NCBI RefSeq assembly: GCF_016841685.1
Contig: NZ_JAENYR010000004.1
Span: 1-64,000 of the forward strand
Direction of reading: 5' to 3'
From: Thiohalomonas denitrificans
GTDB lineage: Bacteria > Pseudomonadota > Gammaproteobacteria > Thiohalomonadales > Thiohalomonadaceae
Length of the DNA: 64,000 nt
Shown here piece by piece: positions 39,533-63,709 of this stretch. The notes beneath the pieces are model-generated. The model had not been told where the DNA came from. It made no database searches and was given only the letters and a program-made list of their open reading frames with translations. A program made the translations under genes and the position numbers. Position 1 is the first letter of the stretch, and each line of letters opens with the position of its first letter.

Positions 39533-42500
39533 TTAGTTGTGTGCAGTGTCGGCGGGGGCGTTTTCGACCGTCATGTCGTAGAGGGCGCCTGCCGCGGTGA
39601 ATAGCAGACTGGCACGCACCGGCCGTCCCGGCCAGAGTCGGGCGATGCCTTCGGCGTAGAGACGCAATTGTTCCTCGTAGGGCTCCGATAACTTGGGCAG
39701 GTTCCCCTCGCAGGCGCGGGTGTGGGTTTTGTAGTCCACGACCCAAAGTTGATCTGCGGATACGATCAAGCGGTCGATGATGCCGTGTACGACACGACCG
39801 TCCTCCCGACGATAAGTGACCGGGACCTCGCAGAACGCCTGACACTCGGCACCGGGCCGGAACAGCGGGGCCAGATCGGCCTGGGTCAAAAGCGATTGTG
39901 CCTCCTCCCACCAGGACCGGAACTCCGGCTCTTGCGCATCGAGGCCGAACTCCTGGGCCACCGATTCGTCGCCATGGGGATTGCCTTCTTCCACCAGCAG
40001 TTCGAGCATGCGATGGATCACCACTCCTCGCAGCAGTGCATCCTCCTCCATTAGCCCGTTCGGACCGCCATGGGCAGCTGCTGCCACCCGGCTGCTGGGT
40101 GCCACTTCAAGCGGCAGAGGCGGTGGATCGATGGCGCGGCCCAGGGCGGCCGGAACAGTAACCGGTCTGCTCTCCCGGGCTACTCCCTGCACCGAAGGGT
40201 CGGGACGTTCACCGCTCTCGAGCACGGCTGGAGCGGTCGTCCCGCCCTCGATGGCTAAAGCCGTCGCGAGCAATCCGTACCATCCCAACTCCTCGCCCCG
40301 GCGGGGCCGGCAACCGGAAATAAAGAGCATTTGCCGCGCGCGGGTGAGTGCCACGTATAGCAGATTGGCCTGTTCGCGCTGCTCGGCCGCCTTGTCCAAG
40401 TCCAGTTGGCCTCGGGTAATCGTATCCTGCTGCGCCTTGCGGCCCACAAGCAGTAGTCGTTCCGGGTGGGGTGCGCCGGCCGGCCAGTCCACCAGTGCCC
40501 GGAACGGAGAATCCTTTTGCCGTGCGGCGGCGGCATCGGCCAGAAAAACCACCGGAGCCTCGAGCCCCTTGGCTGCATGGATGGTCATCACCCGCACTCG
40601 TTCGCCACCGCAGGCCGGCGCCTCGTCCGGTGCCTCGCCGGTGAATTCCCGCAGTTGGGAAAGCCTGGCGACAAAGCCGGTCAGACTTGGATAGCGACCG
40701 GCATCGATTTCCAGGGCCAGTTCAAGGAAGCGCCCCAGATTGGTGCGTATTCGCGGCTGCAAATGCGCCGGGAAGGCCGCCTCGTAACGGGCCAGGACAT
40801 TGCCGTCGCCATAGATGCGATCGAGGAGGTCGTGAATGGGCAGCCGGCCGGCAAGGCGGCGCCAGCCATTCAGTAGTCGATGGGCACGCGCCAGGGGAGC
40901 AGCCGGAGGAAGTTCGATGGCCCCCTTTGCCAGGCGCTCCAGCCAGCCGCCCTTGCCGAGGGCCAATGTGACCAGATCGCCGTCGCTGCAGCCGAAAAGG
41001 GGTGAGCGCAATACCGTTGCAATCGACAGGTGATTGTAGGGGGTGATCAATACCTCCAGCAGGGCCACCAGATCGCGCACCTCCAGTGCCTCCAGCAATG
41101 TCCCCCGATCCGCCCCCACATAGGGGATCCCGGCTTCCCGCAAGGCCGCCTCGTACACTCCGGCATGGGTTCGGCTGCGGACCAGAATAAGCACATCCCC
41201 GTAATGCATCGGGCGAGCCTCATCGCTATCCCCGACCGGTGTGGCGTCGGCCACCAGTGCGGCGATACGCGCGGCGATCTGACGCCCTTCCTGCCGGTAG
41301 CGTCCATCGTTGGCGATACGTCTCGGTTCTGTCAGGGGGTCCCGCAGCCGGTCGCTTTCGGCCTCTTCGGGTGGTTCGCTTGTCTTGTTCTCCTCCACCA
41401 GCGGCAGCATTTCCACACGCCCCCAAAGATCATCATGGAACGTGTCGTGCTCGGCGAATTCGGCCAGGCCTTCCGCCAGGGGACCCTCCGGTCCGAAGAC
41501 CCGGTTGACACACTCGATAACCGCCCCCGCCGAACGGCGGGAGATATGGAGGGTATGGCCGTGGGCGGCCATGGCACCACTCAGCCATTCATGGGCGGCG
41601 GGCAGCAGGCGCGGGTCGGCACGGCGGAACCGATAGATGGACTGCTTGACATCGCCGACCAGGAATACACTGCGGCGTCGCTCACTTTCGCCTGCCGCCA
41701 TCTCCTCGAGCAGGGGCAGCAGCAAACGCCACTGAGTGGGGTTGGTGTCCTGGAATTCATCCACCAACAGGTGATCGATGCGCTGGTCCAGTTTGAACTG
41801 GACCCAGTGGGCATTGTCCGCATCGCTCAGCAGCCGGTAGGCACGCCACTCCAGGTCGGCAAAGTCGAGCAACCGCTGCTCCTCCTTGAAGCGCTGAAAG
41901 TGCCCGATAAGGCGCTCACCCAGGCGGTACCAGGCGCTGGTGGACGCCACCGTCTCCCGGCGGGAGAGGGCGTCCCGCACTGTCAACACCTTTTCGCTAA
42001 GCGTGGCGTGGAGTTCCAGAAAACGCTCCTGGCCGGCTTCGGTCATTTTTTTGGCCTGGGCCTGGCTGGCCTTGCGCGAGCGCAGCTCGCCATCCTTTCG
42101 GAGGAATGCCGCGGCGGCGGCTTCGAAGCGGGCTTCGAGTGGGGTCTCCTTGTGGACTGCCATGCCCAGGCCCTCGGCGAGATTCGGATTGTCGCGAATC
42201 GGATGGCGCAGGAGGAGTTCGGCGAATGCCTGTAACTCCTCGGCGTGGGTCCCCAGGAATCCGCTCCGGGGATCCGGGTCGTCCGGATCACTCTCCAGGT
42301 GGCGGGCCGCCTCCGAGACGGCCCATGCGACGGGTTCGTTGCGATTTTCGGTATAGGCCCACCAGTCGCTGCGGCGACCGAGAAAGTCGGTCAGGGCGCT
42401 GCTCAGGCCGTCTAGGCTGCCGCAGTACTTCAGCAGCCGCTCAAGGTCCTGTCCCACAGCCCCGTCGGGTTCGGCCGTGGCTTCCGCCATCAGGTGTTCC

Positions 42501-42949
42501 CAGGCCGCACGCTCCAGCTCTCCGGTGCGCTCGATCAGCTCGAATCCGGGTGGCACGTCGGCCTCCAGCGGAAAGCGGCGCAGGACCTCCTGACAGAAGG
42601 CGTGAAAGGTGGTGGTTCTAACCGGTTGACGCGCCCTCAGGGTCCCCTCGTAGAGGCCGCGGGCGCGCCCGCGGGTCTCCGCATCCGAAGGCGCCCCCAT
42701 CATCTGCAGCAGTTCGCTCTGGCGCTTCTCATCCGTGCAGGCAAGTTCGAAGAGACGCTCATTGAGGCGGGTCTGCATCTCGGCAGCGGCCTTGCGGGTA
42801 AAGGTGATGGCGAGGATCGCGTCTGGTCGTACCCCGTCGAGCAGCAACCGCACGAGACGGGTCACCAGCAGCCAGGTTTTCCCGGTACCGGCCGAGGCCA
42901 TGACGGTGGCGTTGATGCCGGGTGAGCCGGCGGAGAGCGGGTTGGTCAT
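39533..42949 (-). CDS. addA: AddA helicase-nuclease
   Basis: Main subunit of the AddAB double-strand-break resection complex, functional counterpart of RecBCD. The 1138-residue product has UvrD-type motifs: Walker A ASAGTGKTWLLVTRL near residue 19, AITFTRKAAAEMQTR, Walker B-like LVDEFQDTNPTQW near 395, GDVKQSIYRFRRADP, and MTIHAAKGLEAPVVFL in the C-terminal half. A C-terminal PD-(D/E)XK nuclease domain contains VDYKTHTRACEGN. ATG at 42949 begins at MTNPLSAGSPG, 13 residues before the P-loop; an upstream extension adds 14 residues. It lies downstream of addB on the same strand, unusually separated by 611 bp. Confidence 0.93.
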   Translation of the reverse strand: MTNPLSAGSPGINATVMASAGTGKTWLLVTRLVRLLLDGVRPDAILAITFTRKAAAEMQTRLNERLFELACTDEKRQSELLQMMGAPSDAETRGRARGLYEGTLRARQPVRTTTFHAFCQEVLRRFPLEADVPPGFELIERTGELERAAWEHLMAEATAEPDGAVGQDLERLLKYCGSLDGLSSALTDFLGRRSDWWAYTENRNEPVAWAVSEAARHLESDPDDPDPRSGFLGTHAEELQAFAELLLRHPIRDNPNLAEGLGMAVHKETPLEARFEAAAAAFLRKDGELRSRKASQAQAKKMTEAGQERFLELHATLSEKVLTVRDALSRRETVASTSAWYRLGERLIGHFQRFKEEQRLLDFADLEWRAYRLLSDADNAHWVQFKLDQRIDHLLVDEFQDTNPTQWRLLLPLLEEMAAGESERRRSVFLVGDVKQSIYRFRRADPRLLPAAHEWLSGAMAAHGHTLHISRRSAGAVIECVNRVFGPEGPLAEGLAEFAEHDTFHDDLWGRVEMLPLVEENKTSEPPEEAESDRLRDPLTEPRRIANDGRYRQEGRQIAARIAALVADATPVGDSDEARPMHYGDVLILVRSRTHAGVYEAALREAGIPYVGADRGTLLEALEVRDLVALLEVLITPYNHLSIATVLRSPLFGCSDGDLVTLALGKGGWLERLAKGAIELPPAAPLARAHRLLNGWRRLAGRLPIHDLLDRIYGDGNVLARYEAAFPAHLQPRIRTNLGRFLELALEIDAGRYPSLTGFVARLSQLREFTGEAPDEAPACGGERVRVMTIHAAKGLEAPVVFLADAAAARQKDSPFRALVDWPAGAPHPERLLLVGRKAQQDTITRGQLDLDKAAEQREQANLLYVALTRARQMLFISGCRPRRGEELGWYGLLATALAIEGGTTAPAVLESGERPDPSVQGVARESRPVTVPAALGRAIDPPPLPLEVAPSSRVAAAAHGGPNGLMEEDALLRGVVIHRMLELLVEEGNPHGDESVAQEFGLDAQEPEFRSWWEEAQSLLTQADLAPLFRPGAECQAFCEVPVTYRREDGRVVHGIIDRLIVSADQLWVVDYKTHTRACEGNLPKLSEPYEEQLRLYAEGIARLWPGRPVRASLLFTAAGALYDMTVENAPADTAHN

Positions 42950-43113: not shown

Positions 43114-43131
43114 TGTAGGACAAATCTGATA
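43114..43131 (+). promoter_or_regulatory. Candidate GacA/UvrY-type binding site
   Basis: TGTAGG-ACAAAT-CTGATA matches the GacA consensus TGTAAG-N6-CTTACA at 9 of 12 fixed positions. It lies about 180 bp before the predicted start of the CsrB-like RNA, a spacing seen for csrB/rsmZ upstream activating sites. The right half is weak, so this is tentative. Confidence 0.4.
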
Positions 43132-43241
43132 ACGTCGTAGGTGATTTGCCCGGGATAATGGTGATCTTCGTTATGGTTGTTGTTAGCCGGGAACGCAATA
43201 CATTGAATTTGCACAAAACCTTCAACCGAGGTGGTTTGGGG

Positions 43242-43261
43242 GCGGTGAAACCGCTTTTTTT
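43242..43261 (+). terminator. Short terminator-like hairpin upstream of the sRNA
   Basis: GCGGT (43242-43246) pairs with ACCGC (43250-43254) across GAA, followed by seven T residues. No plus-strand gene precedes it, so what it terminates is unclear. Confidence 0.55.
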
Positions 43262-43267
43262 GTTGGG

Positions 43268-43295
43268 TTGTTGCTGCGGTTTTGAGTGCTAATCT
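43268..43295 (+). promoter_or_regulatory. Predicted promoter of the CsrB-like RNA
   Basis: TTGTTG (43268-43273), 16-bp spacer, TAATCT (43290-43295) preceded by TGC (extended -10). Transcription would start near 43,302, directly before the first AGGGA hairpin. Confidence 0.6.
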
Positions 43296-43301
43296 TCGGT
43301 C

Positions 43302-43488
43302 AAAGGGAATTGTTGTACCAGCCAGGGACGGCGTGCCGCAGGGAAGCGGTGAACCAGGGATGGCCCCAGAACAAACGGGTTCCGAGTGGCTCGAGCAGTT
43401 GCCAGGAGGCGTCACCACAGGGATGGTGGTGAACGGCATGGAAGCCGGGAAGGGATTGAGAGGGCGGCAACACCGCCCTTTCTTTATT
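43302..43488 (+). ncRNA. CsrB/RsmZ-like CsrA-sequestering small RNA
   Basis: About 185 nt with nine GGA motifs (43306, 43326, 43342, 43358, 43405, 43421, 43440, 43448, 43453), against about two expected by chance. Most sit in loops of short stems: CAA-AGGGAA-TTG (43301-43312), GCC-AGGGAC-GGC (43321-43332), CCGC-AGGGAA-GCGG (43336-43349), a weak CC-AGGGAT-GG, GCC-AGGA-GGC (43401-43410), TCACCAC-AGGGATG-GTGGTGA (43412-43432) and CGGC-ATGGAA-GCCG (43434-43447). The RNA ends in a perfect 7-bp terminator stem (43461-43467 with 43473-43479) and a T-rich tail. This is the architecture of CsrB/RsmX/Y/Z RNAs that titrate CsrA, whose gene lies at 63,521. An ORF overlaps (43282-43560) but has no protein family likeness. 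The host gap between addA and addB is otherwise empty. Confidence 0.75.
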
Positions 43489-43560: not shown

Positions 43561-46512
43561 TCAGTGGGGAAGAGGATCCTGTCGTTCCTGTTCCTCGTCG
43601 CTGTGCCAGGCCTGCCGCCGGCAGAGTCCGTCCATGGGACAATATCCGCAGATGGTCGCATCGCCCCAAGCGGGCATTTCTGCCCCCGACTTCAGGCGTT
43701 CGAAGAGTTCGGAAAGGCGCACGTCGACCGCGTTCTTCAGCTCGTGCAGTCGATCCCCTTCCAGGATGGCGCGGCTTTTAACCTTCTCTTTTCCCAGCTC
43801 CAGATATTGCACCTGCTCGACCGCCATTCCCGTTTCCGCCTCGGCCAGCAGGGCGTAGCAGGGTAGCTGCACCGCTTCACCCGTCAGCACATCCGCGTCC
43901 GACGGCACCCGGCCTGTTTTGTAATCGGTGACCGCAATCCGGCCTTCGGCTGCATCGAGTCGGTCGAGCCGGCCCTGGAGCGTCAGGCCGTCCGGGGCCT
44001 CGCGCCGTGCGCTGACCTCTGCGGACTGCACCCGCCACTGCTGGTCACGCCGAAGCTGCCAGTCGATATAGGCTGGAATCACTACCCGCCAGCGCTCCAG
44101 CCAACCCCGGTGAAGAAAGTTATCCTCCAGATCGTCGGCAAATACGGCCTCGGCAATGGTTTCCATGGTATGGATGGCACGGTCGCGATTGGCCCGCGTA
44201 ACCGGCTGATCAAATGGCCCGGGCAGCCCTTCGCCGCCCTTGTGGAAGGCCTCCAGACAGCGGTGGACGCGCTCGCCATAGTCCGACTTTTCAAGGGCTT
44301 CGCGAATGGCATCGGGCGGCGCAAGATGCAACAGGCGCGCCGCAAAGAACTGATAGGGGCAGTCCATCAGCTGTTGATAGCCGCTGGCGGAAAGGGTGTG
44401 GGGAAGCAGGGTCGCTTCGGCGCGAGGTCGGGGCGCGGTCTCTGTGCAGGGCAAAGGGGCGCTGCGGTTGACGACCTCGGCCTCCGGCGTACGGACCAGT
44501 AACGCCAGCTCGTCATCGCCGAGACCCTCGTCATAGGCGAGCCGGTGAAACGCCTGCAGGCTCTCTACCCAGGGGCTGGGTGCCACCGGCTCGCCGTCCT
44601 GCTCCCGCCGGCAGGTCACCAGAATCCGGGGTGCTGCCTCCAGCAATCGTCGAAAGTGATAAAAACGCTCGCTGCGTCGTGTATCGCCTTCGGGCAATCC
44701 CAGATCCCGCCGCACCCCATCGTTAAAAAAGGGTGATTGCCCGCCACTGCCCGGCAGATGGTCCCGTTCGGCCCCGGCCAGTACGAGCGCTTCGTAGTGC
44801 CCGAGTACGCTTTGCGCCAAGTCGGTGAGGACCACCGGGCTACCGGTCACCGGGGGACGGAAGTGGGTATGTTCCAGGCTCGCGCCCATCCAGGTGCGAA
44901 GTTCGGTCCAGTGCAGCATGGTGTCCTGTTCTCCGGCGGCCCGCTGTAGCGATGCCAATGTCTGCAGCACCCGGGCGCCGGCTGCATCCTCTTCCAGAGC
45001 CCTGGTTGCACCGAGCTTCTCGAGACTGTGCAGAAGGGCATCCAACACCTCGGCCGGCGGGCTCTCGGTGCCGATGAAACGCCGCAGCGGCTCGGCGGCG
45101 CGTCGCAGGTGTTCCAGCAGTTCGGCCACGGGCTGCAAGGCCGCGCCGGCAGCATCGGGCAGTCGATGACGCCGGTAATCGAGCCGGCGCCGATAGGCCG
45201 CAAGGCCCCGGCCGACATTTTCATGCAGGATAACGTCGCGTTCCAGGCGGTAGACGGTGGCGAGATGGCGTTCGCGCCGGTGTTCCGCCACCAGAAACGG
45301 CGATTTGAGCAGGTCCAGCAGCGCCAGATAGGGGAAATCCTCCTCCAGGCACTCCAGCCAGCGCTCCACCAGGGCGGCGGCACTGGTGGTGGAGAGGGCC
45401 CAGCCGCCCCGGTCCTGTACCTGAATGCCGGCGCGTTCGAGCAGTGCCCGCACACGGCGGGCCAGGCGACGGTTCTCGGTGACTACCGCCAGGCTCTGTT
45501 TCCCCTCCAGCAGCCAGCGGCGTATCTGCAGTTCTACCGAACGTGCCTCCTGTTCGGTATTGTCGGCCTGGAAAATAGTCAGTCGGCCGTTTGCGGGCGA
45601 CTCGGCTTCGGTGGCCAGGAATGCCCGCGCACGCTCTACCAAATCCCTGGCAACATCGCTGTAGCCTGCGAACACCGTGTCGAGGAAGCGCGTATAGGCC
45701 GAATTGCAACGGAGTGCCCGGTCGGGTTTTTCGCCCAGGTTTTGCAGCAGCGCAGACGGAATGGCATCGGGATGCTGCAAGGCGGGAGCATCGCCACGGC
45801 CATGAACCACAACCGTGACCGGCCGACAGGCGGCCAGCCCGGAGAGCCATTCCACTTCGGGGGCCTCCAATATCGGGAAACCCGCGAGATAAACGGCACC
45901 CGTACCTGCGGAGGCCTGACTGGCGCCCAGGCGCATCAGGTCCGCAGCAGCGCGGTCGATATAGGCGCCGGCGGCCAACTGTTCATGCCAGGCGTGCCAG
46001 AGTGTATGTACGAGCCGCGCCTCCATTCCCAGCCCAGAAGGGAAAGCGTCATCACTGCCATAGGCCTGCACCAACCGATCGGTAAAGGCCTGCAGGTCCT
46101 CCGGCACCCCCACCCGCCGGCGGGTCATGTCATCGAACAGCTCCAGCAGGCTTTCGGCCAGTGCCCACAGACTGGCCTTGCCGAACAGGGTGCGGTGGTT
46201 GCGCAGGGCCTCCACCAGCATCAACTCCCGTTCGGGCTCGTCGAGGATGCGTCGCTCGGGAATGGCAAAGCCCGCCAGCCAGTCCGAGAGGCGTGTAATC
46301 CTGGGGCCGAGCAACGCGGCATGACCGTGCATCGCGACGCGTTCGAGTAGCAAACGGCGCAAACGGGGCCCGGCGTCGAGATCGGGCACCAGCACCAGCA
46401 CCCGATCCAGCACCGGCAACTTCCCTCCGGCGTCTTCAACTATCCTATCGGCGAGGAGGGCCAGGGGGTCGTTGGCGTAATCGGCCTGCAGGATACAGGG
46501 GCTTGGCGGCAT
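43561..46512 (-). CDS. addB: AddB-like nuclease (inactivated-helicase subunit)
   Basis: Second subunit of AddAB, combining a degenerate UvrD-like helicase fold with a C-terminal PD-(D/E)XK nuclease. The 983-residue product lacks an obvious Walker A in its N-terminal half. Its C-terminus shows QGRLDRLDAAEGRIAVTDYKTG (catalytic Asp and Lys) near residue 870. Cys residues in QQLMDCPYQFF (about 725) and the C-terminal ICGYCPMDGLC group match the four-Cys iron-sulfur staple of AddB. ATG at 46512 is 3 bp after the fdxA stop. Sequence divergence from model AddB proteins is large, so the assignment rests on these motifs and on addA next door. Confidence 0.85.
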   Translation of the reverse strand: MPPSPCILQADYANDPLALLADRIVEDAGGKLPVLDRVLVLVPDLDAGPRLRRLLLERVAMHGHAALLGPRITRLSDWLAGFAIPERRILDEPERELMLVEALRNHRTLFGKASLWALAESLLELFDDMTRRRVGVPEDLQAFTDRLVQAYGSDDAFPSGLGMEARLVHTLWHAWHEQLAAGAYIDRAAADLMRLGASQASAGTGAVYLAGFPILEAPEVEWLSGLAACRPVTVVVHGRGDAPALQHPDAIPSALLQNLGEKPDRALRCNSAYTRFLDTVFAGYSDVARDLVERARAFLATEAESPANGRLTIFQADNTEQEARSVELQIRRWLLEGKQSLAVVTENRRLARRVRALLERAGIQVQDRGGWALSTTSAAALVERWLECLEEDFPYLALLDLLKSPFLVAEHRRERHLATVYRLERDVILHENVGRGLAAYRRRLDYRRHRLPDAAGAALQPVAELLEHLRRAAEPLRRFIGTESPPAEVLDALLHSLEKLGATRALEEDAAGARVLQTLASLQRAAGEQDTMLHWTELRTWMGASLEHTHFRPPVTGSPVVLTDLAQSVLGHYEALVLAGAERDHLPGSGGQSPFFNDGVRRDLGLPEGDTRRSERFYHFRRLLEAAPRILVTCRREQDGEPVAPSPWVESLQAFHRLAYDEGLGDDELALLVRTPEAEVVNRSAPLPCTETAPRPRAEATLLPHTLSASGYQQLMDCPYQFFAARLLHLAPPDAIREALEKSDYGERVHRCLEAFHKGGEGLPGPFDQPVTRANRDRAIHTMETIAEAVFADDLEDNFLHRGWLERWRVVIPAYIDWQLRRDQQWRVQSAEVSARREAPDGLTLQGRLDRLDAAEGRIAVTDYKTGRVPSDADVLTGEAVQLPCYALLAEAETGMAVEQVQYLELGKEKVKSRAILEGDRLHELKNAVDVRLSELFERLKSGAEMPAWGDATICGYCPMDGLCRRQAWHSDEEQERQDPLPH

Positions 46513-63520: not shown

Positions 63521-63709
63521 ATGTTGATTTTGACTCGGCGGGTGGGTGAAACACTCGTGATTGGTGATGAAGTGACGGTAACCGTTTTGGGTATCAAGGG
63601 TAACCAGGTACGTATCGGGGTGAATGCTCCCAAGGATGTCTCGGTGCATCGTGAGGAGATCTATGAACGGATTCAGCGTGAGAAGAACGGTGAAGAAATC
63701 CCTTCCTGA
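63521..63709 (+). CDS. csrA: Carbon storage regulator CsrA
   Basis: Dimeric RNA-binding protein that represses or stabilises mRNAs by binding GGA motifs near ribosome-binding sites, antagonised by CsrB-type RNAs. The 62-residue product is canonical: [49 protein letters not shown] at 63521 with GAGGAGAG upstream. The 80-nt leader contains five GGA triplets (including CAGGA and the SD GAGGA), as expected for CsrA autorepression. A candidate antagonist RNA lies at 43302-43488. tRNA-Ser follows, as in many gammaproteobacteria. Confidence 0.97.

Follow-up and report, generated by a model that had tools for sequence, protein, structure and literature searches.

A predicted CsrB/RsmZ-type small RNA gene between addB and addA in Thiohalomonas denitrificans

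The promoter region of a CsrA-antagonizing RNA has been described for csrB of E. coli (Zere et al. 2015, PMC4682653). An 18-nt repeat, TGTGAGAGATCTCTTACA, has its centre at -183/-182; TGTAGGAGA follows 5 bp further downstream, and an IHF site lies between the repeat and the promoter. The csrC gene carries TGTGAGACATTGCCGATA, a UvrY repeat that is degenerate and ends in CGATA (PMC4682653). Judged by its anatomy and by comparison, a gene in Thiohalomonas denitrificans very probably encodes an RNA of this kind, i.e., a CsrA antagonist of the CsrB/RsmZ type that would be activated by UvrY.

The predicted RNA gene and its surroundings

The window, by which we mean the whole stretch of 64,000 nucleotides analysed, contains the following features:

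39536-42949, minus strand: addA, the divergent neighbour
43302-43488, plus strand: predicted CsrA-sequestering small RNA gene, with nine GGA and six AGGGA, kept in a congener and with syntenic homologues
43458-43488, plus strand: intrinsic terminator of the small RNA, with a stem of 10 pairs (43458-43482) and a T-rich tail, kept in the congener
43561-46512, minus strand: addB, the convergent neighbour
63521-63709, plus strand: csrA, encoding the proposed target protein (CsrA equivalog match)

The gap between the DNA-repair genes addB and addA that holds the RNA measures 611 bases. The RNA is found on the strand opposite to both genes, pointing away from addA and towards addB. The preliminary description had placed it between these two genes and had seen csrA at 63521 in the same window, and both placements are right. 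The csrA gene follows lysC (a name read from the sequence) and precedes a tRNA gene; no other CsrA match was found in the genome. The genome also encodes UvrY. It was searched for with the sequence from E. coli as query and identified by its NCBIfam equivalog match (299.5 bits versus a cut-off of 280); uvrC follows directly, a gene order that is familiar from other gammaproteobacteria. The joint presence of csrA and uvrY/gacA is a feature of the Csr/Rsm class. For the cognate kinase (BarA/GacS), a BarA orthologue over the cut-off was not found in the genome: sCache_4 is absent, and the best hybrid kinase stays far below the BarA cut-off.

Nine GGA triplets, mostly in the form AGGGA, had been announced for the RNA. 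All nine were located between 43306 and 43455, strand and coordinates being right; they start at 43306, 43326, 43342, 43358, 43405, 43421, 43440, 43448 and 43453, and six of them have the AGGGA form. The intrinsic terminator, likewise announced, is present. The 150 nt before it contain eight GGA, which is near chance (equalled by 12% of dinucleotide shuffles), and five AGGGA, which none of 5000 such shuffles equalled. Over the whole window, on either strand, the density of AGGGA is highest at this RNA.

A DNA search of 95 relatives matched the RNA in one congener, at 87% identity, and yielded nothing else convincing. In the congener, too, the RNA occupies the gap between addB and addA, and the -10 element, the terminator and seven of the nine GGAs are preserved; those at 43448 and 43453 are lost, and one is gained elsewhere. 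The preliminary description had made its case depend on the conservation of the GGA loops in this gap, and the GGAs are indeed kept, not lost while their surroundings stay. A one-base indel within the RNA distinguishes the window from the congener, which argues against protein coding.

At least six of the GGAs had been assigned to stem-loops. The minimum-energy fold of the window RNA has only three inside hairpin loops, the ensemble mean of being unpaired amounting to 0.65, whereas in the fold of the congener RNA eight of ten GGAs are within hairpin loops, of the types GCC-AUGGAC-GGC, CCGC-AGGGAA-GCGG and CCACCAC-AGGGAUG-GUGGUGG. The claim is therefore right only in part; the window fold does contain the predicted AGGGATG hairpin at about 43412-43432. 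The stability of the window RNA is ordinary (z = -1.31). In the homologous RNAs described below, GGA is unpaired at 0.62, versus 0.34 for other G-rich triplets there and 0.52 for shuffled GGAs; multiple GGA motifs that are preferentially unpaired are characteristic of the Csr/Rsm class. Little compensatory base change was found in subgroups of the homologues, and covariation is slight. When the window RNA was aligned with six longer relatives, the divergence was too great for a useful consensus fold.

The genome harbours a second RNA of similar make-up. It lies between dapB (named by reading the sequence) and dnaJ (G000:C63:41176-41546, L185), is rich in GGA and has a terminator and a UvrY-type box, TGTAAGTAATTCCCTACA. 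It is 90% identical in the congener and has no addAB nearby. Csr/Rsm systems commonly have such sibling RNAs. Apart from this sibling, the AGGGA clusters inspected in the genome lack a like-placed terminator, and several of them are simple repeats.

Homologous RNAs beside addA

Sequence similarity fades fast, and homologues were therefore searched for by synteny: addA was sought in the order and the class, and the stretches upstream of it were examined along with named loci. RNAs that are rich in GGA and end in a terminator stand beside addA in 30 copies. They come from 29 genomes, which represent about 12 gammaproteobacterial families, and the strand is always the same. In the family of the window all 12 genomes examined have the RNA; the remainder come from about 11 further families. 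Weak cases among the 29 genomes are G020 and G335. On the far side, addB is found in 24 genomes, and in the other five it was not present in the stretch examined. Where addB abuts addA, the RNA has no space and is absent. Of the gaps that exceed 240 nt and in which addB was found, the RNA is missing from essentially one type (G245, also seen as L037).

In fixed stretches of 150 nt at the 30 loci, the RNA strand has 251 GGA versus 34 on the opposite one, 144 ANGGA versus 7 and 74 AGGGA versus 1, and it is the richer strand at all 30, counts that describe the set and are no unbiased test, since the loci were picked partly for their GGA richness. The sums for GGA (shuffle mean 159), ANGGA (mean 43) and AGGGA exceed those of all 300 dinucleotide shuffles. 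A tree of the C-terminal part of AddB requires about seven changes (6-8) between presence and absence of the RNA, far fewer than the 15 seen when the labels are shuffled; a single origin of the addA-linked RNA is compatible with this tree.

Promoter, upstream box and the possible readings

Upstream of the RNA the following elements are seen:

43114-43131, plus strand: UvrY/GacA-type inverted repeat TGTAGGACAAATCTGATA, centred at about -180 (compared with PMC4682653)
43137-43142, plus strand: third UvrY half-site, GTAGGT, which follows the inverted repeat after 5 bp, spaced like TGTAGGAGA in E. coli csrB
43196-43208, minus strand: possible IHF site ATTCAATGTATTG, weak, kept in the congener
43287-43295, plus strand: extended -10 element TGcTAATCT, without a good -35, identical in the congener

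The extended -10 element thus ends at 43295, as had been described; a sigma-70 match with two hexamers was not found at the RNA promoter. The possible IHF site ATTCAATGTATTG has one mismatch to the textbook consensus. The centre at -180 assumes a start at 43302. The boxes were scored solely by the third half-site and the published consensus, with 18 points in all. At least 14 points are reached at 13 of the 30 loci versus 1.2% of shuffles. The box of the window scores 13, and its second half, like that of csrC, does not follow the strict published consensus CTTACA. No recognisable box was found in the Muproteobacteria-like homologues (L023, L024, L027, G101) and a few others. A UvrY/GacA box far upstream of the RNA is typical of the Csr/Rsm class, and so is a non-coding gene that stands alone and has its own promoter and intrinsic terminator, which is what we find here in silico.

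Some side observations may be added. Between the UvrY box and the promoter, the window has a terminator-like hairpin with a T-run (43238-43258), the T-run being kept in the congener. In G017 (L127) the addA-linked RNA sits in a shortened gap without box or promoter, possibly due to decay or an assembly fault. UvrY-like boxes are also seen upstream of a RidA-like gene (L192, G000:C47:7329-7346) and a GalU-like gene (L191, G000:C11:44358-44375), names that rest on reading the sequence; these genes are possible direct targets of UvrY.

Does the box belong to the RNA at all? It is located between the two start points and could serve the divergent addA promoter, in the hands of a repair-related regulator, the RNA then being an independent element; the similar boxes in front of the RidA-like and GalU-like genes would fit such a role. 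However, a box was recognised at 21 loci, where its distance is 174 (sd 25) as measured to the RNA and 140 (sd 146) as measured to addA. Moreover, the gap between addA and addB in G074 (L142) holds two RNAs in tandem. Each of them has a UvrY-type box and a terminator of its own, and the second box, a perfect TGTAGG-N6-CCTACA, is 482 bp away from addA. The spacing is nearly constant on the RNA side, not on the addA side, and each tandem RNA has a box; the box therefore belongs to the RNA. Its geometry is also that of csrB, and control of addA as its real purpose is quite improbable.

The RNA itself might be explained in other ways. That it is mainly antisense to a read-through transcript of addB and addA, and not a decoy for CsrA, would suit its position on the opposite strand between these co-directional genes. 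Such a function would not need many GGAs, yet their multiplicity stays while the sequence diverges, and the sibling RNA is without addAB nearby, which makes this explanation most improbable. A chance accumulation of GGA in a G-rich intergenic region, the terminator alone being real, would agree with a GGA count near the shuffle expectation and with the ordinary stability of the fold. It does not account for the excess of GGA on one strand next to addA in 29 genomes or for the UvrY box at a fixed distance, and after the comparative data it appears very unlikely.

The CsrB/RsmZ-type reading, already put forward in the preliminary description, is supported by syntenic conservation, the strand bias of GGA, the UvrY/GacA box at the distance known from csrB and the presence of csrA and uvrY. 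If transcribed as predicted, the non-coding RNA of about 185 nt would expose between seven and nine GGA sites, the majority of them as AGGGA within small hairpins. It would bind several CsrA dimers and, by sequestering them, set free the mRNA targets of CsrA. Phosphorylated UvrY (GacA), bound to the inverted repeat about 180 bp upstream, would activate the weak extended -10 promoter, possibly aided by IHF bending. A functional meaning of the placement, with UvrY/CsrA signalling coupled to AddAB recombination via the divergent region or via pairing between the RNA and the addB-addA transcript, seems unlikely. A search of papers for a link of addA/addB with CsrA gave nothing relevant. In the sources that could be searched, a description of the conserved home beside addA was not found either; by these sources both the addA-side RNA and its conserved locus are new, whereas the kind of RNA is known. 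It would extend the Gac/Csr switch, RNA arm included, to gammaproteobacterial families for which RNA databases show none. It also offers a rule for finding such RNAs, i.e., to look beside addA and for the promoter signature, and the promoter geometry of E. coli csrB appears to be kept across distant lineages.

Comparison with the known RNA families

The Rfam covariance search, suggested earlier as a check, gave only sub-threshold matches to CsrB-type families, and no family, CsrB, CsrC, RsmY and RsmZ included, reached its gathering score on the window RNA or the addA-linked RNAs. The best match of the window RNA is CsrC (RF00084), with E = 0.024 in a search of 501 bases and 15.1 bits versus a gathering score of 61. 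Sub-threshold matches at addA-linked RNAs are CsrB with E = 4.8e-4 (G090), RsmZ with 0.024, 0.051 and 0.12, and RsmY with 0.094, the bounds of the latter not being exactly those drawn for the RNA; these E-values relate to the size of each search, and the same lists hold unrelated weak matches elsewhere. Most matches of the RsmZ model in relatives were terminators only and were discarded. In another family, without detected addA, a further CsrB-like RNA was seen (L106, G026:C17:68160-68322; RF00018, 30.2 bits, below the gathering score).

The RNA of the window resembles CsrB of E. coli (RF00018) in its many GGA loops and its intrinsic terminator. The resemblance extends to the csrB promoter, with the UvrY repeat at about -180, the TGTAGG-type half-site 5 bp downstream (PMC4682653) and the possible IHF site in between. 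Unlike CsrB, it is shorter (about 185 nt), resides between addB and addA, not at the csrB locus, and is missed by the CsrB model. With CsrC it shares the degenerate UvrY repeat, but it scores far below the gathering score of that family. To RsmZ and RsmY of Pseudomonas (RF00166, RF00195) it is similar in size, in its GGA hairpins and in the GacA-type box far upstream. Some homologues match these two models below threshold and none above the gathering score, and the locus is a different one.
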